From: Sphingomonas hankookensis
GTDB taxonomy: Bacteria; Pseudomonadota; Alphaproteobacteria; Sphingomonadales; Sphingomonadaceae
NCBI RefSeq assembly: GCF_028551275.1
Contig: NZ_CP117026.1
Span: 1-64,000 of the forward strand
DNA: 64,000 bases
Direction of reading: 5' to 3'
Shown in pieces: positions 52,542-64,000 of this stretch. The notes under the pieces are model-generated. The model searched no databases. It was not told the DNA's origin and saw only the letters and a program-made list of their open reading frames with translations. The translations under genes were made by a program, and so were the position numbers. How positions within the stretch are numbered: position 1 is the stretch's first letter; every line of letters begins with the position of its first letter.

Positions 52542-53983
52542 TGGTCCGCTCGATCGTCCGCTTCTGCGCCGCGGTTCTCGCGCAGGCCAGCATGATCCTC
52601 GCATTGGGCGGTCTCGTCGCGACGCCGGCGCTGGCCGACGTCCAGGGCGAGATGAACAGCTATTTCAACAAGTCGGGCGCGGCCGCCAACGTGACCGGCC
52701 CGACCGCCTTTCAGGGGCAGTCGGCGGGTTATTACTCGGGTGGTTCGCTGTGGAGCCGCTTTCCGCAGAAGTCGATCAACCCGGTCAGCGTCGCGCTCCC
52801 CAGCGCGCGTGGCGGCTGCGGTGGCATCGACCTGTTCGCGGGGTCGTTCTCGTTCATCAACGCCGACGAGATCGTGGCGATGCTCAAGGCGACCGCCAAC
52901 AACGCGATCGGCTTCGCCTTCCAGCTCGCGATCGACAGCATCTCCGCGCAGATCGGCGGGGTGATGAAGGACATGAGCCAGCGCGTGCAGCAGCTGAACG
53001 CGTTCAACATGTCCTCGTGCGAAGCGGCGCAGCAGGCGGTCGGCTCGCTGTGGCCGGCGATGGACGGGGCGTCCTCGACGATCTGCCAGCAGGTCGGCGG
53101 GGCGAAGGGGTTCTTCTCCGACGCGGCTGCGGCGCGCCACGGCTGCACCAACAAGGGCGAGCGTGAGGATACGATCGCGCGTGCCGGCGACGATGCCGAA
53201 TTGGTCCAGTCGAAGAATTACACCTGGTATGCGCTGAACGCCAAAAGCGCGACCAAGCCGTCCCGCGAATATGCCGAGTTCCTCATGACGATGGTCGGCA
53301 CGATCATCTATGACGCGACCAAGGCCAAGGACAGCATGGGCGCGTTCCAGTTCATCGCGCCGGCCAGCTGGGACACCTATCAGGCGCTGCTCGACGGCAC
53401 CGCCTCGGCACCGACCGATGTGTGGCAGTGCGACACGACCGACGACAAGGGGTGTCTGAAGCCCACGCCCACCAAGCTGAGCATCTCGACCAACGAGGCG
53501 CTGCGTACGCGCGTCCTGAAGGCGATGGACAGCATGTCGGGCAAGATCCGCTCCAACGCCGCGCTGTCGGGTGACGAGATCGCGCTGCTGGGCATGACGT
53601 CGATCCCGCTCTACAAGATCCTCGTCGTCAACGAGGCGGCGCACATGGGCCTCTCGGGCGGCGATCGCGCGACGCTCGCCGAGATGGTCGCGATCGACAT
53701 GCTGATGTCGATGCTCGACCGGATGCTGGACACGATCTCGCAGGCGCAGGCGGGCGCGAAGTTCGTCTCGACCGACGAGTTCAAGGCGTGGCGCGCCCAG
53801 GTCGACAGCGTGAAGACCGAGCTGTCGCGGCGCAGCGAGAAGATGGCCGGGCAGATCTCCAATACCTACCGGGTGATCCAGTACACCCAGTTCATGGAAT
53901 CCACCCTCAAGAACACCATGAGCCCGCAGTTGTCGGCTTCGCTCCGGTTCGGACGCGGCCTCAGCGCGCAGGGCTTGCGGTAA
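52541..53983 (+). CDS. traH: Conjugation protein TraH
   Basis: The 480-residue exported protein (signal AQASMILALGGLVATPALADV) shows the TraH sequence: GQSAGYYSGGSLWSRFPQKSINPVSVALPSARGGCGGIDLFAGSFSFINADEIVAMLKATANNA in pieces, and a C-terminal coiled coil. TraH is an outer-membrane-associated protein required for pilus extension and interacts with TraF, TraU and TrbI. Its length matches the family. Confidence 0.95.
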   Translation: MVRSIVRFCAAVLAQASMILALGGLVATPALADVQGEMNSYFNKSGAAANVTGPTAFQGQSAGYYSGGSLWSRFPQKSINPVSVALPSARGGCGGIDLFAGSFSFINADEIVAMLKATANNAIGFAFQLAIDSISAQIGGVMKDMSQRVQQLNAFNMSSCEAAQQAVGSLWPAMDGASSTICQQVGGAKGFFSDAAAARHGCTNKGEREDTIARAGDDAELVQSKNYTWYALNAKSATKPSREYAEFLMTMVGTIIYDATKAKDSMGAFQFIAPASWDTYQALLDGTASAPTDVWQCDTTDDKGCLKPTPTKLSISTNEALRTRVLKAMDSMSGKIRSNAALSGDEIALLGMTSIPLYKILVVNEAAHMGLSGGDRATLAEMVAIDMLMSMLDRMLDTISQAQAGAKFVSTDEFKAWRAQVDSVKTELSRRSEKMAGQISNTYRVIQYTQFMESTLKNTMSPQLSASLRFGRGLSAQGLR

Positions 53984-54006
53984 ACGGCGGCAAGGGAGCG
54001 ACGGCG

Positions 54007-57000
54007 ATGGGCGGGCTCGAAGTCTTCACGATCGGCGGGGGCGAATATATCGTCAACGTCTTCAACGCGGTCGCGGCATGGACCGGGGGCGGGGGCTACC
54101 GCTCGATGCTCCAGGTCGTGATGGTGATGGGCTTCATCTACTCGCTGTTCGTCGTCGCCTTCTCGCTCGACTGGCGGGCGTGGTTCAACTGGTTCCTCCA
54201 GTCGACGCTCATCTACATGATGCTGATGGTCCCGACCGTCACGGTGAAGGTGACCGACCGGATCAACCCCGCGCTCGCGCCCTCGGTGGTCGACAACGTG
54301 CCGCTGGGCCTGGGCGTGATGGCCTCGTTTACGAGCCAGGTCGGCGACTGGATGACGCGCTCGGCCGAGACCGTGTTCGTCATGCCCAACGCGCTCGCGC
54401 TGACCAACAACGGCATGATCTACGGCGCGCGGCTGATGGACAAGGCACGCACGTTCCAGATCACCGACAGCGTGTTCCGCGCCAACCTCGATGAGCATCT
54501 GAAGCAATGCACCTTCTATGACGTGCTGCTCGGCTTCAAGGCGATGGACGACCTGACCAAGACCAGCAACCTGTGGGAGTCGATCGGGCCGGGGTCGCCG
54601 GCGCGCAGCCAGCGCTGGATCAGTTCGACCGGTCCCGGCACCACCGAAAATTCGATAATCCCGTGCAACGAAGCCTATTCGCGCATGGATGCCCAGTGGC
54701 AGACGGCCTACGACAAGGATCTGATCCCGTTCGCCAGGAACGCCTATCCTGGCATCGCCGACACGATCGCGGCGCAGCGCATTCGCGATGACCTGCCGGT
54801 GGTCGCGGCGCAGATGCACGGCACCTCGACCGATGCCTATTCGTACCTGAAACAGATCTCGATGATTGACGCGTTCCTGGCCGCGCGCGAGAGCTTCTCA
54901 GACGCCGGGTGGGACGCCTATGCGTCGCAGCGCGCGGACGCCCAGGCCAAGAACACCTACACCTCGATCGCTACGCAGGCGATGACCTGGGTGCCGCTTC
55001 TCGGCATCGTCCTGACGGTCGTATTCTACGCGATGTTCCCGGTGCTTTTCCCGCTGTTCCTGTTCCCCAGGACCGGCCTGCAGACGCTCAAGGGCTATGC
55101 GACCGGGTTCTTCTACCTCGCCTCCTGGGGGCCGCTCTACGTCATCCTGCACATGTTCGTGATGAGCAGGGCGGCGAGCCTCTATCACGCGGCGGCGCCG
55201 ATCGGGCCGACGCTGCTGGTTTCGGACGGCATGGCGAGCGTCAATGAATCGATCTCGACGCTCGCCGGCTTCCTGATGATGAGCGTGCCGTTCATCGCCG
55301 GCGGGATGGCGCGCGGCGCGATGGCGATCGCGGGGCATGCGACCTCGATGTTGCAACCGGCGCACAGCGCGGCCGAACAGGCCGCGACCGAGCGCACCAC
55401 CGGCAACTACTCGTACGGCAATACCTCATTCCAGAACCTGACGTCGGGCATGACCCAGGCGAACAAGTTCGACGATCAGCCCAAGTTCAATTCGGGCTAT
55501 TCGGTCGGCACGTTCACCAACGCCGACGGTGGCGTGACGTACGGCTTCGCGGACGGGACCAACGCGTTCGATACCCGCCAGGGCATCTCGAACCTCGCAT
55601 TCACGCCGACGCGGACCGCCGGGTTCGACAGCAGCATGAGCCGGGCGCTCTCGGACGGGCAGACGCACACCCAGTCGCTCCGCAGCGCGGCATCGCAATC
55701 CTGGAACGCGACGGCGACGACGGCGACGGATCTGTTGACGGCCGCTGAGCATCGGCGTGGTAGTTCGACCGAGACGGGGTCGGGGTTCAATAACAGCATC
55801 ACCAGAATGACGGAGGCATCTCGGAGCCTTTCCACCGGACTGAGCAATCGCTTTGGTCTTAGTGAGTCCGATGCACAGCAAGTCGCCCGTGCTTCGCAGA
55901 CCACAGGCGACGCGAACGCCGGCATAGAAGTTCTTAAGAAGTTGTGGGGCGTCACCGGAAGGGCTGGCCTCAGCGGTAAAATCGCATCGATCGCGACCGA
56001 AAATACGAACAGGACGCTGTCGGCCGATAACGCCTACGGGGAATTACAAGACTACATTACAAAGGAAACTAACTCGACGCAGGCCCGGGCAGCACGCGAC
56101 GAATTCATGCGTGAATCTAGCACGAGCGGAGATAGCGAGGTTCGGTCGCTGTCGCAGAAGCTGGGCGTCAGCGTCGGGGAATCGCGGTCGGCGTCGTTGG
56201 AAGCAACTCGAGCCGAAGAGACGTTCCAGCGGGTCAGCAACGATGTCAGGGAGGCCTCGGCGCGGGGCTGGTCGCTCAATCGGAACGAGAGCCAGGAGTT
56301 TGTCGTGTATGCCCAGGAGCGGCTTCTCGGCGACGACACGCTGTCGCAGTTCGGGTGGACGCCAGGCATGGTCATGCCGCGCACGCCGCAACAGGAACAG
56401 GTGCGCGATATCCTGCTTGGCGAATTTATGGAGCGCCGCGTCGCATCGGTCCGCGACGAACTGGGTGTAAGCGTGCCTGAGCGTCTGTCGGGGCAGTTGC
56501 ATGGCCCCGCATCGGCGACCCCGGGTGCGGTAAACCAATGGGGCAACCAGCGCGCAGCCGGTGTCAGGGCACAAGGACCGGACGTGTCGATCCGCGAAAG
56601 TTCGCGCGATCTCGACTTGGCCGGCAATGTCGCAGACGCGATCCCGAATGCGTCAGCGCGCATCACCCGTGGTGCATTCGAGGTCGGCAACGGTGTCGAC
56701 GAGGCGAGAGGGACGGCGGGTCAGCTAGGTGACCATGTCCAAGAACGCAATGATGCGTGGATCACGACGACACTTCCCGGTGTTGAGGGCGCGCGCAACT
56801 GGGTCCGTGACAATCTCGGGATCGGAGCTGGCACCAGCCATGTTTACGAAGTCCCGCGCGGTGAACGTGCGATGCTGCCGATTTCGGGGCGGCTGAGTTC
56901 GGGAATGGGTGGTCGGATCGACCCGGTCACTGGCGAGCCCGGACGGCATCACCGAGGGGTGGATATTGCCGCGCCAGCAGGGACGGAGATCCGCGCACCT

Positions 57001-57270
57001 GCATCGGGCCAGGTCATCCGAAACGACTTCCAGGCCAACGGGGCCGGCAATTATGTGGTCCTGCAGCACGGCGACGGGTCGCAGAGCAAATACTTCCACA
57101 TGCAGGATCGGTCTGGCTTCCAGGTCGGCAGCACGGTCGAAGCTGGGGCGGTGATCGGGCGTGTTGGCAGCACCGGGAAATCGACCGGTTCGCACCTTCA
57201 TTATGAATTATGGAAGGATGGCGCTCCGGTCGATCCGAGGCGGTTCCAGCTTAGGAATGGCCGGGAGTGA
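54007..57270 (+). CDS. traG: Conjugation protein TraG with C-terminal M23 peptidase domain
   Basis: ATG 54007 (AAGGGAG 7 bases upstream) starts a 1,087-residue protein. The N-terminal 450 residues are TraG_N (EVFTIGGGEYIVNVFNAVAAW; several membrane helices, e.g. MTWVPLLGIVLTVVFYAMFPVLFPLFLF). A long Ser/Thr/Asn-rich periplasmic region follows. From about residue 960 an M23/LytM metallopeptidase domain appears: GRLSSGMGGRIDP, HHRGVDIA (H-x3-D zinc site) near 981 and GSHLHYELW (H-x-H) near 1062. TraG normally serves pilus assembly, mating-pair stabilisation and entry exclusion; the added domain could open peptidoglycan in donor or recipient. It is the last gene of the operon here. Confidence 0.92.
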   Translation: MGGLEVFTIGGGEYIVNVFNAVAAWTGGGGYRSMLQVVMVMGFIYSLFVVAFSLDWRAWFNWFLQSTLIYMMLMVPTVTVKVTDRINPALAPSVVDNVPLGLGVMASFTSQVGDWMTRSAETVFVMPNALALTNNGMIYGARLMDKARTFQITDSVFRANLDEHLKQCTFYDVLLGFKAMDDLTKTSNLWESIGPGSPARSQRWISSTGPGTTENSIIPCNEAYSRMDAQWQTAYDKDLIPFARNAYPGIADTIAAQRIRDDLPVVAAQMHGTSTDAYSYLKQISMIDAFLAARESFSDAGWDAYASQRADAQAKNTYTSIATQAMTWVPLLGIVLTVVFYAMFPVLFPLFLFPRTGLQTLKGYATGFFYLASWGPLYVILHMFVMSRAASLYHAAAPIGPTLLVSDGMASVNESISTLAGFLMMSVPFIAGGMARGAMAIAGHATSMLQPAHSAAEQAATERTTGNYSYGNTSFQNLTSGMTQANKFDDQPKFNSGYSVGTFTNADGGVTYGFADGTNAFDTRQGISNLAFTPTRTAGFDSSMSRALSDGQTHTQSLRSAASQSWNATATTATDLLTAAEHRRGSSTETGSGFNNSITRMTEASRSLSTGLSNRFGLSESDAQQVARASQTTGDANAGIEVLKKLWGVTGRAGLSGKIASIATENTNRTLSADNAYGELQDYITKETNSTQARAARDEFMRESSTSGDSEVRSLSQKLGVSVGESRSASLEATRAEETFQRVSNDVREASARGWSLNRNESQEFVVYAQERLLGDDTLSQFGWTPGMVMPRTPQQEQVRDILLGEFMERRVASVRDELGVSVPERLSGQLHGPASATPGAVNQWGNQRAAGVRAQGPDVSIRESSRDLDLAGNVADAIPNASARITRGAFEVGNGVDEARGTAGQLGDHVQERNDAWITTTLPGVEGARNWVRDNLGIGAGTSHVYEVPRGERAMLPISGRLSSGMGGRIDPVTGEPGRHHRGVDIAAPAGTEIRAPASGQVIRNDFQANGAGNYVVLQHGDGSQSKYFHMQDRSGFQVGSTVEAGAVIGRVGSTGKSTGSHLHYELWKDGAPVDPRRFQLRNGRE

Positions 57271-58995: not shown

Positions 58996-59001
58996 TAAAC
59001 G

Positions 59002-59025
59002 GGCCAGGGTTTTAGAACGCTGGCC
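59002..59025 (+). terminator. Hairpin after the HU gene
   Basis: GGCCAG (59002-59007) and CTGGCC (59020-59025) form a stem whose loop also has partial symmetry (GTTTTAGAAC). It begins 6 bases after the HU stop. There is no T-run, so termination strength is uncertain. Confidence 0.35.
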
Positions 59026-59042
59026 TAAACTGAGGGGACTTC

Positions 59043-59195
59043 ATGGCCGATACCGCAGCCGACTACCGCGCGAGGGCAGCGGCCGACCTTGCCGAGGCCC
59101 AGCAGCTCGTTCTGCCCCATGCTAGGGACCGTATGCTGCATTCGGCCGATCGCTGGTCGAAGATGGCTGATGCGGCCGATCGCCGTGTCCGGTAA
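59043..59195 (+). CDS. Small helical protein, 50 residues
   Basis: ATG 59043, preceded by TGAGGGGACTTC, opens a 50-codon frame: MADTAADYRARAAADLAEAQ and so on, ending MADAADRRVR. It is almost wholly alpha-helical and Ala/Arg-rich. Similar short helical proteins with a YRARAxxxxAEA opening are common in this bacterial group; their function is unknown. The good ribosome-binding site is the main support. Confidence 0.5.
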   Translation: MADTAADYRARAAADLAEAQQLVLPHARDRMLHSADRWSKMADAADRRVR

Positions 59196-59364
59196 CGAAA
59201 GCACGACGGTCGCGCTCGACGTGGCTAACTGGTCAGCGGTCCAGGCAATGGTCGAGCGTCTCGACGACAGGGCTGTGATAGCGATCTACGAGCTGGCCGA
59301 AGGCGCTGGTCCGGTCGCGGACCTCGCGGCCGCACAGATGGAAAAACGCAACCTCGACTATTGA
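59170..59364 (+). CDS. Small hypothetical protein
   Basis: The possible start at ATG 59170 (or GTG 59185) overlaps the preceding small gene by 26 bases. The 64-residue product reads ESTTVALDVANWSAVQAMVERLDDRAVIAIYELAEGAG, a plausible folded sequence of strand and helix. No family is recognised and no strong ribosome-binding site is visible, so this could be a chance frame. Confidence 0.35.
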   Translation: MRPIAVSGNESTTVALDVANWSAVQAMVERLDDRAVIAIYELAEGAGPVADLAAAQMEKRNLDY

Positions 59365-59490
59365 GCCAAGTTAAGAGTTCGGCCGCTGGTTAAGCCGCTG
59401 TTGCCAAGCCGGCACAAGCCACGTTCCTGTTGTTCCCGCGATTTAGAGAAGACATAATCGTCACCAGATAGAAATGACACCGTCTGGTAG

Positions 59491-59540
59491 CAGCGGGGGC
59501 AGCGTGGAGCCATCCAAACAGCGCAGCGCTGCCCCCGCTG
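59491..59540. repeat. 14-base perfect inverted repeat
   Basis: CAGCGGGGGCAGCG (59491-59504) and CGCTGCCCCCGCTG (59527-59540) are exact reverse complements separated by 22 bases. A second, shorter stem, CCCGCTG (59572-59578) and CAGCGGG (59585-59591), reuses the same CAGCGGG core. The structure may be a terminator pair, a recombination site or an element end. Confidence 0.55.
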
Positions 59541-59622
59541 ATGCCATTACCTCACGGCTCCTGACCCCGGACCCGCTGCGCCAGCAGCGGGCTTGGTTAC
59601 CCTGGTTTTCACGCGGCTGACC

Positions 59623-59690
59623 TTTCCCGAAACTCCATGTCCGATGCCGCATTTCGGGAAAATACAATCGGGAACATATTTCGGGAAAAT
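59623..59690. promoter_or_regulatory. Cluster of TTTC-N2-GAAA sites
   Basis: TTTCCCGAAA (59623-59632) and two identical ATTTCGGGAAAAT copies (59651-59663 and 59678-59690, 27 bases apart) share a TTTC-N2-GAAA dyad. Partial copies (AATCGGGAA) occur near 59667 and 59753. The array lies 150-215 bases upstream of the DUF417 gene. It could be a regulator-binding array or iteron-like. Confidence 0.45.
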
Positions 59691-59790
59691 CAGCCCCGGA
59701 GCCGCGAGGCGTAGCCGGTTTGCGGCCCAGGATCTCGATCGACCTTCCCAATCGGGAATGTCGGGGGCGAGCCTTGGCTGGGGAGGCGTT

Positions 59791-59816
59791 GTAACCCATC
59801 TCCGTCCCGCTTCGTA
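59791..59816 (+). promoter_or_regulatory. ECF (SigF-type) promoter of the DUF417 gene
   Basis: GTAACC (59791-59796), a 16-base spacer and CGTA (59813-59816), 22 bases before the ATG at 59839. The pattern equals the known Caulobacter SigF consensus GTAACC-N16-CGAA in all but one position. Confidence 0.7.
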
Positions 59817-59838
59817 AGCGCTCCCAAAGGGGAGATTT

Positions 59839-60300
59839 ATGACGACTAGCTACGTTCCGAACGACGCCACCACCATCGCTGCGTTGCGATGGTCGATCGT
59901 CATCGTTTTCGCATTATTCGGCATCGCCAAGTTCGCGGCATATGAGGCCGAGGGCGTGGCAAAGATCGCAAGCCACTATCCGCTCTTTAGCTGGATGTAT
60001 CCGATCTGGGGCGAGCGTGGCGCAAGCAACGTCATCGGTACTATCGAGTTGCTGACAGGAGCAATGATCGCGCTCGGCGCTCGCTATCCGTTCGCAAGCC
60101 TCGCCGGCGGTGCGATGGGCGTATTCACCTTTTGCGTCACGCTCAGCTTCTCATTGGGTGCGCCCGCGTTCTGGCAGGCGGGATACGGCGCTCCGTTTCT
60201 CGGGTCGACCGGCCAGTTCCTGATGAAGGACGCCGTGCTGCTGGCAGCCTGTTACGCACTCGCGGTCGACGGACAACGCCGAATGCCGCGCGGCGACTGA
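59839..60300 (+). CDS. DUF417 (YkgB/RclC-like) membrane protein
   Basis: The 153-residue inner-membrane protein has four helices (LRWSIVIVFALFGIAKFAAYEAEG; VIGTIELLTGAMIALG; LAGGAMGVFTFCVTLSFSLGAP; MKDAVLLAACYALAV) and the family features KFAxYEAEGIxP-like, SPLFSWMYPIWG-like and GRFLMKD-like (here GSTGQFLMKD). DUF417 includes E. coli RclC, needed for reactive-chlorine resistance. It has a SigF-type promoter and a good GGGGAG site. It is therefore a probable stress-response target of the sigma factor encoded next to it. Confidence 0.85.
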   Translation: MTTSYVPNDATTIAALRWSIVIVFALFGIAKFAAYEAEGVAKIASHYPLFSWMYPIWGERGASNVIGTIELLTGAMIALGARYPFASLAGGAMGVFTFCVTLSFSLGAPAFWQAGYGAPFLGSTGQFLMKDAVLLAACYALAVDGQRRMPRGD

Positions 60301-60309
60301 CGCACGCGG

Positions 60310-60960
60310 TCACCAGCGCAGGAGCCTTGGACCCATCAGCGCTCCTACGCTGGCGGCGAGGGCAATTCCTAGTGTGTACCAGGTAAGCACGAAGATGGCC
60401 GATACCTCGGGGCAGTGAAGGCAGTAGATCGTCGCCGCCCATCCCCCGGCGCTCAGTCCCGCTGCAGCACCGGCGGCCCTGAAGTGTGTCGGCGCGAGAC
60501 GCCGGAACGACCACAGCAATCCGGCGAAGATCGGGATCGACAGGGTCAGGACGTGCCACGGACAGCTCCGCCAGCTTTGGCCCAGCCACATCGCCAGCCA
60601 GTCGCCAGAGGGCGTCGAGGCGAGTTCGACCACCCCGACGCCTGCCAGGAGGAGCGCCGGCACCGCCAGCAGCCATAGGCCGCGCGGGACGCTCGCGTCC
60701 GGACGAGCCAGCTTCACCGCCGTGGACATCGCCACCATCGCGATCGACAGGGTGTAGGCGGCCTTGATCCAGAAGGACGATCCTTGCATCGCCGCATCCA
60801 GATCGGGGCGAACGCCGATCGTGGCGCCCATGTAGAGAGCCGCGAGGACGCATCCGGTCGCGATCCCGATGGCGATGCGCCGCGCGACGGCGTTAGGCGG
60901 CACACGCGCTACGTCGCGGCTGAGCTGTCGGATCAACTGTTCGGTGCTCTCAGTGCTCAT
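60310..60960 (-). CDS. nrsF: NrsF-type anti-sigma factor (DUF1109)
   Basis: The start is ATG 60960, five bases after the sigma-factor stop. The 216-residue protein has a short cytoplasmic N-terminus (STEQLIRQLSRDVARVPPNAVARR) and six membrane helices, with Cys residues in SCPWHVLTLSIPIF and YCLHCPEV. This is the DUF1109/NrsF plan; in Caulobacter, NrsF holds SigF at the membrane and conserved periplasmic Cys residues are needed for its control. It probably senses oxidants or metals in the envelope. Convergent with the DUF417 gene, with 9 bases between their stops. Confidence 0.85.
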   Translation of the reverse strand: MSTESTEQLIRQLSRDVARVPPNAVARRIAIGIATGCVLAALYMGATIGVRPDLDAAMQGSSFWIKAAYTLSIAMVAMSTAVKLARPDASVPRGLWLLAVPALLLAGVGVVELASTPSGDWLAMWLGQSWRSCPWHVLTLSIPIFAGLLWSFRRLAPTHFRAAGAAAGLSAGGWAATIYCLHCPEVSAIFVLTWYTLGIALAASVGALMGPRLLRW

Positions 60961-60965
60961 TGCCG

Positions 60966-61493
60966 TCACCCTTTCAGCCGGGCGGCGAGCGCACGAAGGC
61001 CGCGATGCACGGAAATCTTGACGTCGGACTCCCCGATCCCGGCTCGGGTAGCGGCCTCCGCGATGCTTTGTCCGTCGATATGCGTGTCCCGAATGGCTCG
61101 CGACTGCTTGGGCGGCAGCGTGCCCAGCAGACGGGCGACATCGATCCGGGCATTCGCGGATGCTTCGAAACCCTCCGTCACCAGCATTGCCTCCACGTCC
61201 TCGATCGGGATGTGCCGGCGCTGTCGGCGCAGGTGATCGATCATGCGATAGCGTGCGATGGCATAGAGCCACGCCGTGAAGGGGCGGCCGCGATCCCAGG
61301 TCGCCCGGCGGCCATGCACGGCGATCAAGGTTTCCTGCACCAGGTCATCCACTTCGTTGCTGCCGGCGAGCCGCCGGCGATAAAAACGTTCCAGCAGCGG
61401 GACGAGCGCGCGCAGTAGCGCAGCGTGAGCGGCAGCGTCGCCATCCAGCCCCCCGATCATCAATGCCTTGAGCTGATCTTCGCTTTGCCCCAT
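60966..61493 (-). CDS. ECF sigma factor, SigF-like
   Basis: The 175-residue protein has sigma region 2 (LLRALVPLLERFYRRRLAGSNEVDDLVQETLIAVHGRRATWDRGRPFTAWLYAIARYRMIDHLRR) and region 4 (LLGTLPPKQSRAIRDTHIDGQSIAEAATRAGIGESDVKISVHRGLRAL). The WDRGRPFTAWLYAIARYRMIDHLRR segment is typical of the alphaproteobacterial SigF group paired with NrsF. It is translated just before nrsF. Its own upstream region carries the same promoter pattern, so the pair is probably autoregulated. Confidence 0.92.
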   Translation of the reverse strand: MGQSEDQLKALMIGGLDGDAAAHAALLRALVPLLERFYRRRLAGSNEVDDLVQETLIAVHGRRATWDRGRPFTAWLYAIARYRMIDHLRRQRRHIPIEDVEAMLVTEGFEASANARIDVARLLGTLPPKQSRAIRDTHIDGQSIAEAATRAGIGESDVKISVHRGLRALAARLKG

Positions 61494-61650
61494 CTACACC
61501 CCGCAACGCCGCGTCGATCAGTATCGAGCGGGATATTGCGAATGATCAAGGGGCATAGCGTCCAAGCATAGTCCGGAACGACCAGCGTTCGTCACCGGCA
61601 CCTGTTCGTCGTCCATGCAGTCCTACCCTCCAACGCGCCGGTGCACGGAC

Positions 61651-61676
61651 TACGCGGGAGCGCGGCGTTTGGTTAC
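61651..61676 (-). promoter_or_regulatory. Autoregulatory SigF-type promoter
   Basis: On the minus strand: GTAACC (61676-61671), a 16-base spacer and CGTA (61654-61651). It points toward the sigma-factor gene starting at 61493, which would give a leader of about 150 bases. Confidence 0.65.
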
Positions 61677-61703
61677 AACGGCATCTTTTCATTCATGTGC
61701 CGT

Positions 61704-61729
61704 GTAACCGGCTTCCTGGTTGTCCCGTA
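61704..61729 (+). promoter_or_regulatory. SigF-type promoter of the thioredoxin-like operon
   Basis: GTAACC (61704-61709), 16 bases, CGTA (61726-61729), 29 bases before the ATG at 61759. It is identical in both boxes to the sites before the DUF417 and sigma-factor genes. Confidence 0.7.
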
Positions 61730-61758
61730 GTGACAGGAACCATCAAGGGAGGTCACCG

Positions 61759-62154
61759 ATGCGTTCCATGTTTCTGTCCGTCGCCGTCATCGCCGCGCCC
61801 ATCACGATCGCGGCGCCCGCCCATGCGGCACCGACCGTCAAACCGTTCAATCAGGCCGCGTTCGATGCAGCGCAGAAGGCGGGCAAGCCGATCCTTGTCT
61901 GGGTCCATGCCCCGTGGTGCCCGGTATGCCGTCAGCAGGCAAAGACGATCGAGCGTGTCATCGCCGAACCCGCCTATCGCGACATGCAGGTCTTCCGGAT
62001 CGACTATGACACGCAGAAGCCGCTTTGGCAGAAGTTCGGCGCGACGATGCAGTCGACCCTGATCGGCTTTCGCGGCAAGCGCGAAACCGGCCGCATCGCT
62101 CACGAGACCAACGATGCCAAGGTATCCGCGGTGATCCGCGGCGCGCTGGCCTGA
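61759..62154 (+). CDS. Exported thioredoxin-like protein
   Basis: ATG 61759 has GGAGG close upstream. The 131-residue protein has a signal peptide (MFLSVAVIAAPITIAAPAHA) and a thioredoxin fold with WVHAPWCPVCRQQAKTIERV (CPVC active site), VFRIDYDTQKPLWQKFG and a QSTLIGFRG segment in the usual cis-Pro place. It should exchange disulfides in the periplasm, with electrons from the CcdA-like protein encoded 7 bases downstream. It is the first gene after a SigF-type promoter. Confidence 0.88.
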   Translation: MRSMFLSVAVIAAPITIAAPAHAAPTVKPFNQAAFDAAQKAGKPILVWVHAPWCPVCRQQAKTIERVIAEPAYRDMQVFRIDYDTQKPLWQKFGATMQSTLIGFRGKRETGRIAHETNDAKVSAVIRGALA

Positions 62155-62161
62155 TCCTCTA

Positions 62162-62890
62162 ATGGCCTCGGCGTTGAACCCCGCGCTCGCCTATGTGGCG
62201 GGCGCGCTCACCATCCTGTCGCCGTGCGTGCTGCCGCTGGTACCGATCGTCCTGTCGTCGGCGGCGCAGCGTCACCGCTTCGCGCCCGTGGCACTTGCGG
62301 CGGGACTGGTGCTGGCGTTCACCGCGACCGGCTTCGTCGTCGCCGCGTTCGGGCAGGCGCTCGGGATCGATACGCTTGTCGTCCGGAACGCCGGCGCGAT
62401 CATCCTGTGCCTGGTGGGCATCGTCCTGCTGATACCTCGCCTTCAGGACGGGCTTTCACGGATCGCCACGCCTGCCGCAGCCTGGGCGAGCCGACAGCAA
62501 AGCGCACTCGACGACCGCGCCGGGTTGTGGGGTCAAGCGCTGATCGGGGCATTGCTCGGCATCGTCTGGGCACCCTGTGTCGGCCCCACGCTCGGCGCGG
62601 CGGTGGCGCTGGCGGCGGAAGGGAAGGATCTGGGCGAAGTAGCGCTGGTGATGGCGGCCTTCGGACTAGGTATCTCCACCGTGCTGCTGGTCATCGCCTT
62701 TGCCGCTCGCGGCGCGCTCGCCCGCTGGCGGGGGCGGATGATGGCAGCGGGCGGTCGCGGCAAGATCGTGCTTGGAGGACTGCTGTTAATCGTCGGCATT
62801 TTCATCCTGACAGGGGTGGATCGCCAACTCGAAGCCTTCCTACTCGATCATCTGCCCGACCGGGTAACCGAATGGTCGACCGCCTTTTAA
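62162..62890 (+). CDS. CcdA/DsbD-like transmembrane electron carrier
   Basis: The 242-residue protein has six membrane helices and the two conserved Cys-Pro motifs of the CcdA family: GALTILSPCVLPLVPIVLSS near residue 20 and GIVWAPCVGPTLGAAV near 140. CcdA/DsbD proteins carry reducing equivalents from cytoplasmic thioredoxin to periplasmic partners, here most probably the thioredoxin-like protein made from the same operon and perhaps the DUF1223 protein. Confidence 0.88.
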   Translation: MASALNPALAYVAGALTILSPCVLPLVPIVLSSAAQRHRFAPVALAAGLVLAFTATGFVVAAFGQALGIDTLVVRNAGAIILCLVGIVLLIPRLQDGLSRIATPAAAWASRQQSALDDRAGLWGQALIGALLGIVWAPCVGPTLGAAVALAAEGKDLGEVALVMAAFGLGISTVLLVIAFAARGALARWRGRMMAAGGRGKIVLGGLLLIVGIFILTGVDRQLEAFLLDHLPDRVTEWSTAF

Positions 62891-62920
62891 CATTCGTACT
62901 CTCCCACCGAGGCACTCTGC

Positions 62921-63652
62921 ATGACGCACAACATCCTCTCCCTGCTGTCCCTGTTAGCGCTGGCCGGCTGCGGGCAGGCGCCCGCCGGAGCTGCCGCACA
63001 GCCCCGCCCGGTCAAACCACTCGTCGTCGGGACGCCCGCCGCGCCTGTGGTGGTCGAACTGTTCCAAAGCCAAGGCTGCTCGTCCTGCCCGCCTGCCAAC
63101 GCCAACGTGAACGCCATTGCGGATGCGCCGGGCGTGCTCGCCTTATCCTTCGCCGTGACCTACTGGGATCGGCTCGGCTGGAAGGACACTTTCGGCTCCC
63201 CCGCCTGGACCGCGCGGCAATGGGACTATGCGCGTGCCGCTGGTCGCCCACAGGTGGCGACACCGCAGGTGATCATCAACGGCGGGCCCACTATCGTTGG
63301 CAGCAATCGTGCCCAGCTCGAAGCGGCTATACAGCGCGCCGGCCCTGCGCGTGGCGGTCCTGCCATATCGGTGCGCAATGGAGCCCTGACTCTGGCTGCC
63401 GGCAAAGACGTTCCATCGACGATCTGGCTGGTCCGCTACGATCCGCGGACGGTCGAGGTGCCGATCCGCGCCGGAGAGAATGGGGGGCGGACGCTCCCCC
63501 ACCGCAATATCGTGCGGGAATTGGTAAAGCTGGGCAATTGGTCCGGCGCGGTGACGGAGTTGCCGCTGCCCAGCGCACCCCGCGGGCTGAGCTCCGCCGT
63601 TCTGGTGCAGCAGGGTACGGGCGGGCCGATCACCGCAGCGCGCAAGCTGTAA
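62921..63652 (+). CDS. DUF1223 thioredoxin-fold lipoprotein
   Basis: The 243-residue protein has a lipoprotein signal (LSLLSLLALAGC, lipobox LAGC) and the DUF1223 pattern VVELFQSQGCSSCPPANANVNAIA, VTYWDRLGWKDTFGSPAWTARQWDYA and RPQVATPQVIINGG. The CSSC pair sits in a thioredoxin-like fold. The biochemical role of the family is not known; proteins of this type are found with stress-induced redox genes. It follows the CcdA-like gene by 30 bases and is likely the third gene of that operon. Confidence 0.85.
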   Translation: MTHNILSLLSLLALAGCGQAPAGAAAQPRPVKPLVVGTPAAPVVVELFQSQGCSSCPPANANVNAIADAPGVLALSFAVTYWDRLGWKDTFGSPAWTARQWDYARAAGRPQVATPQVIINGGPTIVGSNRAQLEAAIQRAGPARGGPAISVRNGALTLAAGKDVPSTIWLVRYDPRTVEVPIRAGENGGRTLPHRNIVRELVKLGNWSGAVTELPLPSAPRGLSSAVLVQQGTGGPITAARKL

Positions 63653-63733
63653 GCCGTTGGCGGTGCCGTCCGCGGCTGGGGATCGGCCGAGTTAGCGAGG
63701 CTGCACATCGGCCGACGATATTTCATCGGCCGT

Positions 63734-63759
63734 GTAACTCCGGCCGGTCAGCGATCGAA
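63734..63759 (+). promoter_or_regulatory. SigF-type promoter near the right edge
   Basis: GTAACT (63734-63739), 16 bases, CGAA (63756-63759). The -10 box matches the published SigF consensus and the -35 box differs at one base. The next well-supported start is ATG 63912, which implies a leader of about 145 bases. Confidence 0.55.
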
Positions 63760-63911
63760 GTTGGGATTATGATGATGGGAATTTTCCACTCCATGCGCTC
63801 GACACGCCGGACCGGCGCTTGGGCAGACCACCCGGATGCAGGCCCCGGGTTACAAAACCCTCGCGACTATCGGCACGAAGCCGATGGTGTGCGGTACCGA
63901 GGAGGCTGCAG

Positions 63912-64000
63912 ATGATCGAGCCGCTATCGACTTCAGCCACCGAGACCCGCGAGCGTGCAGAGCACGGCGGCGAACTGGTGTACCGGCATCGATTGCCGAC
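63912..64000 (+). CDS. Start of a possible cytochrome b561-type gene, cut by window edge
   Basis: ATG 63912 has a strong GAGGAGG site 7 bases upstream. The 29 visible codons (MIEPLSTSATETRERAEHGG and on to YRHRLP) end in HRLP, a sequence that in cytochrome b561-domain membrane proteins comes right before the first helix (RLPTRLxHWxNA). The assignment needs the sequence beyond the edge. It is the first gene after the fourth SigF-type promoter, and a membrane haem protein would suit the redox theme of the cluster. Confidence 0.4.
   Translation, partial: MIEPLSTSATETRERAEHGGELVYRHRLP

Follow-up and report, generated by a model that had tools for sequence, protein, structure and literature searches.

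Does the right end of a stretch of sphingomonad DNA carry a stress regulon gathered in one place, with an alternative sigma factor, its anti-sigma factor and the promoters that it reads? The question is raised by a window of 64,000 bp, bases 1–64000 of contig C2 (NZ_CP117026.1; 183,879 bp) in the four-contig, 3.95-Mb genome of Sphingomonas hankookensis (GCF_028551275.1). A first-pass annotation had proposed here a local redox regulon of the SigF/NrsF type, in which an extracytoplasmic function (ECF) sigma factor would act from four sites of the pattern GTAACY-N16-CGWA (Y, C or T; W, A or T). Domains, cysteines and promoters strongly support the locus as an ECF16 (SigF/NrsF) regulon, an assignment made from these features rather than by ECF group profiles. 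As the best explanation of the whole, we consider a mobile, self-contained ECF16 regulon for envelope repair to be likely.

Four promoters and one regulator pair

The four sites lie exactly where the annotation had placed them, with 16 bases separating the boxes in each, and one site heads each transcription unit of the cluster. Three of them read GTAACC-N16-CGTA: promoter 1 (59791–59816, plus strand) ahead of a DUF417 gene, promoter 2 (61651–61676, minus strand) ahead of sigF-nrsF, and promoter 3 (61704–61729, plus strand) ahead of a thioredoxin gene. Promoter 4 (63734–63759, plus strand; GTAACT-N16-CGAA) precedes a cytochrome gene at the right edge, which starts at 63912 and is the first of a two-gene unit leaving the window. 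By coordinates, the distance from the -10 box to the start codon is 22 nucleotides (nt) for DUF417, 29 for the thioredoxin, 157 for the sigma factor and 152 for the cytochrome. The motif occurred 0.10 times on average, and at most once, in 100 shuffles of the window, none of which attained four. Seven strict sites exist in the whole genome, four of them inside these 4 kb. When spacings of 13–19 were allowed, the genome contained 49 sites, seven at spacing 16 and four of these in the cluster; with the 45 sites outside the cluster as background, the Poisson estimate for four sites in 3,969 bp is 7e-11.

The sigma factor (60966–61493, minus strand) has regions 2 and 4 (Sigma70_r2 and r4_2; NF009191, 187.9 bits against a cut-off of 171), as in ECF16, and a single site of the ECF16 promoter type stands before its gene. 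The adjoining nrsF (60310–60960, minus strand), the only copy in the genome, encodes an anti-sigma factor that matches PF06532 with 245.8 bits and scores below the cut-off of the narrower NCBIfam NrsF equivalog (155.6 against 300). Its Cys133 and Cys183, which we equate with Caulobacter residues 131 and 181 by spacing and not by alignment, are kept in 41 of 41 compared proteins and in all 113 distinct sequences. A third cysteine, Cys180, occurs in 84 of the 113 and forms a Cys-x-x-Cys motif with Cys183 (here Cys-Leu-His-Cys). A tie between Cys180 and the presence of dsbD in the locus was unsupported (11/84 versus 2/29, p 0.51). In relatives, ECF16 anti-sigma factors are reported to have six transmembrane helices (PMC3511200, PMC8315932, PMC3420878). 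With the NrsF match, the two signature cysteines and the recurrence of the motif at the nrsF genes of relatives, the proposed SigF/NrsF-type regulon is strongly supported, and control of the module by this pair is very probable indeed.

The motif in related genomes

Of 298 genomes in the family, 144 gave a PF06532 match; at most ten first-look candidates were scored per genome, so that some copies might have been missed. Two sets of loci were compared: 40 stretches of 16–18 kb with an NrsF gene (643,144 bp in total), most of them from the top of the score list, and 80 named loci, the best 80 of 191 (1,375,053 bp), which partly cover the same places, at least seven of them sharing a sigma factor with a locus of the first set. 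The relatives are mutually non-independent, the motif counts include some chance matches, and complete systems are over-represented because most loci were picked by NrsF. The 40 NrsF loci contain 106 sites at spacing 16, between none and five at each other spacing from 8 to 24, and three matches to the reversed pattern; the 80 named loci contain 227 sites at spacing 16 and from none to eight at other spacings. Of the 106 sites in the NrsF loci, 77% carry T at base 0, and base 6 is filled by C in 94% and by T in 6%. Among the first 100 of the 298 genomes, the mean motif density was 3.7 per Mb in the 53 with a detected NrsF and 1.4 per Mb in the 47 without (p 1.7e-8, kinship ignored), and the ratio of motif to reversed control was 0.60 and 0.30, respectively.

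The sites also follow transcription units. We projected orthologs of the eight module proteins onto the loci and counted a site when it lay within about 300 nt upstream. First genes of units often had one: sigF in 84 of 90 distinct cases, DUF417 in three of five (23 nt ahead in all three), the thioredoxin in 6/13, DUF1223 in 10/20 and the cytochrome in 10/36. Second genes rarely did (nrsF 4/93, dsbD 0/11, msrP 1/33), and 2.9% of random 360-nt windows in the same NrsF loci contain a site. Most cytochrome homologs came from a search independent of NrsF, and the site-bearing ones include cases on a contig other than that of nrsF (genome G244) and 435 kb from nrsF (G204). Two further cytochrome homologs (L090 in G154 and L095 in G090) have a SigF-type site nearby and belong to genomes in which NrsF was not detected.

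Other first genes led by the motif in relatives encode, by eye, small Cys-rich exported bufferin-like proteins, MsrA, MsrB and DoxX-like proteins. In locus L065, MsrA and MsrB were confirmed by Pfam and adjoin the same kind of regulator. For the one bufferin-like protein scanned (L050, 8582–8839), no Pfam family matched. Locus L069 (G200, contig 67) has an unusually large linked regulon, with ten SigF-type sites in 18 kb, two nrsF genes and one recognised sigF; its further genes, several of them named by eye, are MNIO-like, MsrA-like, MsrB-like, DUF417, thioredoxin and DUF1223.

The target proteins

The predicted targets can be grouped by the promoter ahead of them. Promoter 1 precedes a DUF417 membrane protein (59839–60300, plus strand) that belongs to the family (PF04224, 86.9 bits) and is related to RclC, a protein of reactive-chlorine resistance from the same family, with a score below the RclC equivalog cut-off (68.5 against 275 bits). 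No Rcl family matched among the other module genes in the library scans, which were confined to these genes.

Promoter 3 precedes three plus-strand genes. The first encodes a thioredoxin-like protein (61759–62154; PF00085, 34.4 bits) with a CPVC motif and, by eye, a signal-peptide-like start, 76% identical to its counterpart in L065. The second (62162–62890; PF02683, 52.5 bits) encodes a CcdA/DsbD-beta-like membrane electron carrier of 242 amino acids, in which the transmembrane part alone matches and the three-domain architecture of DsbD is not present. The third (62921–63652; PF06764, 187.8 bits) encodes a DUF1223 protein with a GCSSCPP motif and a lipobox-like start by eye, whose solved relative 2axo (E 3.3e-26) is of the thioredoxin fold class according to PMC3091736.

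Promoter 4 precedes the right-edge gene (63912–64000 in the window, plus strand, ending at 64703 of the contig), which had been suggested to encode a b-type cytochrome and is indeed a cytochrome b561 (PF01292, 85.9 bits). It is followed beyond the window by an MsrP-like molybdoenzyme (contig 64700–65464, plus strand; PF00174, 120.4 bits) with a lipobox-like start by eye. A chromosomal paralog of the cytochrome (contig C1, 427719–428396; L134) is 59% identical and has no strict SigF-type site. Between promoter 4 and the cytochrome, an open reading frame of 48 codons (63769–63915, plus strand) begins 9 nt past the promoter, has several Met codons near its start and shares an ATGA with the cytochrome start. 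This frame is probably not a gene, because site-bearing relatives have merely 5–60 nt at this place.

A module on accessory DNA

The genes and promoters recur as one piece elsewhere. The conserved module, 59741–64000 and on to about 65566 of the contig, has a counterpart in locus L138, from a metagenome-assembled Pseudomonadota genome, in which none of the eight genes and four promoters is missing; the two share 96.2% identity over 5,826 bp, and every -35 and -10 letter is unchanged. Two Tn3-family transposases and a resolvase lie beside the unit in L138. Similarity to L138 persists leftward at 81% over 59651–59740, where repeated TTTCGGGAAAA-type stretches lie left of promoter 1; in L138 such stretches adjoin the resolvase gene. 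These repeats could be a relic of a Tn3 resolution site.

On contig C2 the module is bracketed by ISNCY-family sequences. To its right are two ISNCY transposase genes (65598–67028 and 67309–68811), 80% identical to each other in DNA, and to its left is a 178-bp end remnant of an insertion sequence of this family (59426–59603, plus strand), 80% identical over 184 columns to contig 67141–67315, which sits between the two transposase genes. The annotation had spoken of accessory DNA, and this description is supported by the size of the contig (184 kb), by its TraG gene and by the occurrence of a 96%-identical copy on a Tn3-flanked contig. An RPA-type replication gene was found on contigs C3 and C4 and not on C2, so the label of plasmid rests on the 183,879-bp size and on TraG. 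The latter is a TraG-N protein (53788–57270) with an M23 peptidase domain at its end. A phage origin was considered and rejected, as no NrsF relative was confirmed in viral contigs. Most module genes are also found loosely grouped around nrsF in L065, L140, L145, L186 and L192. We judge, with the same good confidence as for the explanation as a whole, that the regulon travels as one unit, and the two genomic contexts in which it is known can be read directly from the DNA, as can its genes, the structure of its units and the conservation of its promoter pattern.

Two types of -10 box

The variable letter of the -10 box, A or T at base 25, is not scattered at random. It is A in 67% of the 106 sites and is coherent within loci: 122 of 157 same-locus pairs agree, whereas 10,000 permutations gave 86.8 on average and never more than 121. 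The letter also covaries with residue 83 of the sigma factor. In 72 loci whose sigma factor is not identical to a member of the discovery set, and which include the near twin of the window, L138, T stands in 36 of the 40 sites of Arg83-type loci and A in 150 of the 163 sites of Lys83-type loci. The window follows this rule in three of its four promoters, its sigma factor being of the Arg83 type and the cytochrome promoter being the exception. Bradyrhizobium already allows T or A at this base in its published consensus (PMC3420878). The sigma tree implies roughly two changes at residue 83 and roughly three of the -10 letter, and among these a single independent pair lies on supported branches. 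With so few changes, the pattern is covariation between clades and does not prove a role for residue 83; a more distant clade, moreover, combines Arg83 with CGAA. Residue 83 is thus not established as the cause of the -10 type.

If Trp75 and Ile79 are taken as the equivalents of Trp81 and Ile85 in SigH of Mycobacterium tuberculosis, residue 83 would follow the equivalent of the wedge residue Asn88, and the position after Asn88 in SigH may help to set the base preference of the -10 box according to PMC6411747. We might speculate, without much confidence, that sphingomonad ECF16 sigma factors fall into CGAA and CGTA specificity types through a change in region 2 at residue 83, with the targets following. 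The present cluster would then be a portable, closed CGTA regulon with little cross-talk to a resident CGAA SigF, and its NrsF could sense through Cys-x-His-Cys and be reset by its own thioredoxin.

Relation to known systems

Among the closest described systems is SigF/NrsF of Caulobacter crescentus, with an ECF sigma factor, a two-cysteine NrsF, promoters of the form GTAACC-N16-CGAA and a YedY/MsrP-type molybdoenzyme in the regulon (PMC3511200). As described there, the Caulobacter regulon is spread over three places and has DUF2282, DUF692, DUF2063 and DoxX genes, whereas the module is one linked cluster with DUF417, Trx-DsbD-DUF1223 and b561-molybdoenzyme genes and mostly CGTA boxes. EcfF/OsrA of Bradyrhizobium is an autoregulated ECF16 system, with a DsbD core, a periplasmic thioredoxin and three methionine sulfoxide reductases, and its consensus GTAAC(g,a)-N14-15-(c,t)CG(t,a) corresponds to 15–16 bases in the present notation; it differs in having seven transcription units and peptide-methionine sulfoxide reductases instead of a b561-molybdoenzyme pair (PMC3420878). 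BcrS/AbcS of Brucella, with bcrXQP, combines an ECF16 pair with envelope methionine sulfoxide repair of the MsrQP type induced by hypochlorous acid (HOCl) (PMC8315932). In the module the membrane partner is a b561 cytochrome, and the methionine-rich BcrX/MrpX was not recognised by eye, with no search directed at it. Sigma/NrsF genes are also reported to accompany bufferin operons in many bacteria (PMC12452194), promoters of Sinorhizobium RpoE7 match ECF16 (PMC6180224), and SigF of Azospira is cited via PMC8315932.

Control of methionine sulfoxide repair and of a thioredoxin/DsbD pair by ECF16 is thus already known. Less expected are the whole 5.8-kb unit in a Tn3-flanked contig of a second genome, this gene set and the locus-coherent, clade-following -10 subtype. 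The suggestion of an undescribed stress-resistance module accordingly stands in part: the kind is known from Caulobacter, Bradyrhizobium and Brucella, and for the gene set no paper was found among the matches listed in the open-licence PMC literature, judged by titles and abstracts.

A possible mechanism and its alternatives

At rest, the sigma factor would be held by the membrane protein NrsF; in ECF16 pairs the anti-sigma factor is reported to bind the sigma factor or to keep it at the membrane (PMC3511200, PMC3420878, PMC8315932). An oxidant or a thiol-reactive metal at the envelope might change NrsF through Cys133 and Cys183, and here also Cys180, and thereby free the sigma factor. Control is disturbed in Caulobacter and Bradyrhizobium when the conserved cysteines are exchanged (PMC3511200, PMC3420878), and Bradyrhizobium Cys179 is required for the response to hydrogen peroxide (PMC3420878). 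The released sigma factor would drive its own operon and three others from the N16 promoters, namely DUF417, the thioredoxin fed by the CcdA/DsbD-type carrier together with DUF1223, and the b-type cytochrome with the MsrP-like molybdoenzyme. Their products would move electrons across the membrane, by which oxidised thiols, and probably methionine sulfoxide, could be repaired in the envelope. Sensing and release are modelled on the studied relatives, the substrates and the repair role are suggested by the domains, and the redox and envelope reading of the annotation fits both these domains and the published ECF16 regulons. We regard the mending of thiols and methionine sulfoxide in the envelope after an attack by oxidants as the somewhat favoured role; that HOCl or a similar oxidant is the main inducer is a tentative proposal, for which the chances are close to balanced.

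Several observations weigh against this explanation, and we take them together with the alternatives that they would favour. One such alternative, unlikely but to be taken seriously, is that the module responds first of all to a thiol-reactive metal (chromate, cadmium or copper) and not to reactive chlorine or oxygen, the repair genes answering secondary damage. Inducers reported for ECF16 systems do vary: in Caulobacter, SigF-dependent genes are induced by chromium and cadmium but do not react to generators of reactive oxygen species (PMC3511200), whereas Bradyrhizobium EcfF answers hydrogen peroxide and singlet oxygen (PMC3420878) and Brucella BcrS answers HOCl (PMC8315932). No metal-transport family, moreover, is among the Pfam matches of the module genes.

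A second alternative, comparably unlikely, concerns the right-edge pair, which might act on another S- or N-oxide than methionine sulfoxide, making the module a sulfur-compound or thiol system. The molybdoenzyme indeed misses the cut-off of the MsrP equivalog (NF003767, 98.2 bits against 207), and its partner belongs to the b561 family PF01292 and not to the ferric-reductase-like MsrQ. Nevertheless, among solved structures it comes closest to E. coli MsrP/YedY (1xdq, E 3e-16), with RHDCVEGWS of the molybdoenzyme aligned to RMRCVEAWS of 1xdq, so that the context of the cysteine, which we take to be the molybdenum ligand, is shared; in L065, MsrA and MsrB stand beside the regulator.

The regulon might also not be closed, if the sigma factor reads degenerate chromosomal promoters as well, which we consider rather improbable. 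With any base at position 6, the genome has 22 sites, and our check of gene starts covers the strict seven. As promoters, the three strict sites on the chromosome are implausible, since L001 (antisense) and L003 (sense) lie within long coding frames and L002 lies between two convergent genes (identities of the neighbouring genes by eye), and the chromosomal b561 paralog is without a strict site. No chromosomal regulon was therefore found under the strict consensus, the regulon appears local, and the enrichment upstream of redox genes across the genome that the annotation had envisaged fails on the chromosome. In relatives, control is not universal: the motif is missing before 7 of 13 thioredoxin, two of five DUF417, 10 of 20 DUF1223 and 26 of 36 cytochrome orthologs, so that SigF control of these genes is common and not fixed. 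Three of the 40 NrsF loci have no strict site (L082, L086 and L087, all with a distant NrsF), and genome G144 has NrsF and no strict site at all.

Still less probable is that the sequence of promoter 4 matches by chance or has decayed, with the cytochrome-molybdoenzyme pair being read through from DUF1223 or by another sigma factor. Promoter 4 departs from promoters 1–3 at two positions and alone combines GTAACT with CGAA, and other Arg83-type loci are mostly CGTA. Its leader (63760–63911) is unusually long, as is that of the sigma gene (61494–61650); in relatives, leaders span 14–21 nt for sigF (the 22 with the best scores out of 84) and 5–60 nt for the cytochrome (ten matches, measured to the projected start), and no known RNA reached the Rfam gathering score across 59000–64000. 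Both deviant letters are, however, found in relatives, as the base frequencies given above show (n=106), promoter 4 is kept in L138, though that copy is not independent, and cytochrome homologs carry an upstream site in 10 of 36 cases.

Finally, that the four matches are a coincidence unrelated to the adjoining sigma factor is scarcely credible. In favour of it, the reversed pattern outnumbers the motif genome-wide (13 against 7 strict sites, 126 against 49 with spacings of 13–19), so genome-wide frequency alone is uninformative and the clustering is what tells; one or more matches also occur in 287 of the 298 related genomes. Against it, a chance origin is rejected on the window shuffles, the spacing spectra in relatives and the Poisson estimate, together with the counts at first and second genes.

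Implications

The promoter motif joins DUF417, DUF1223 and the b561-molybdoenzyme pair to the ECF16 stress response. Present at one spacing in more than 100 loci, it makes the ECF16 regulons of sphingomonads largely predictable from sequence, and its CGAA and CGTA boxes provide a natural series for studying how an ECF sigma factor shifts its -10 preference. The module indicates that an envelope stress switch can move with its complete set of linked targets in a single piece of about 6 kb, a point of relevance for the ways in which environmental bacteria become tolerant of oxidants.

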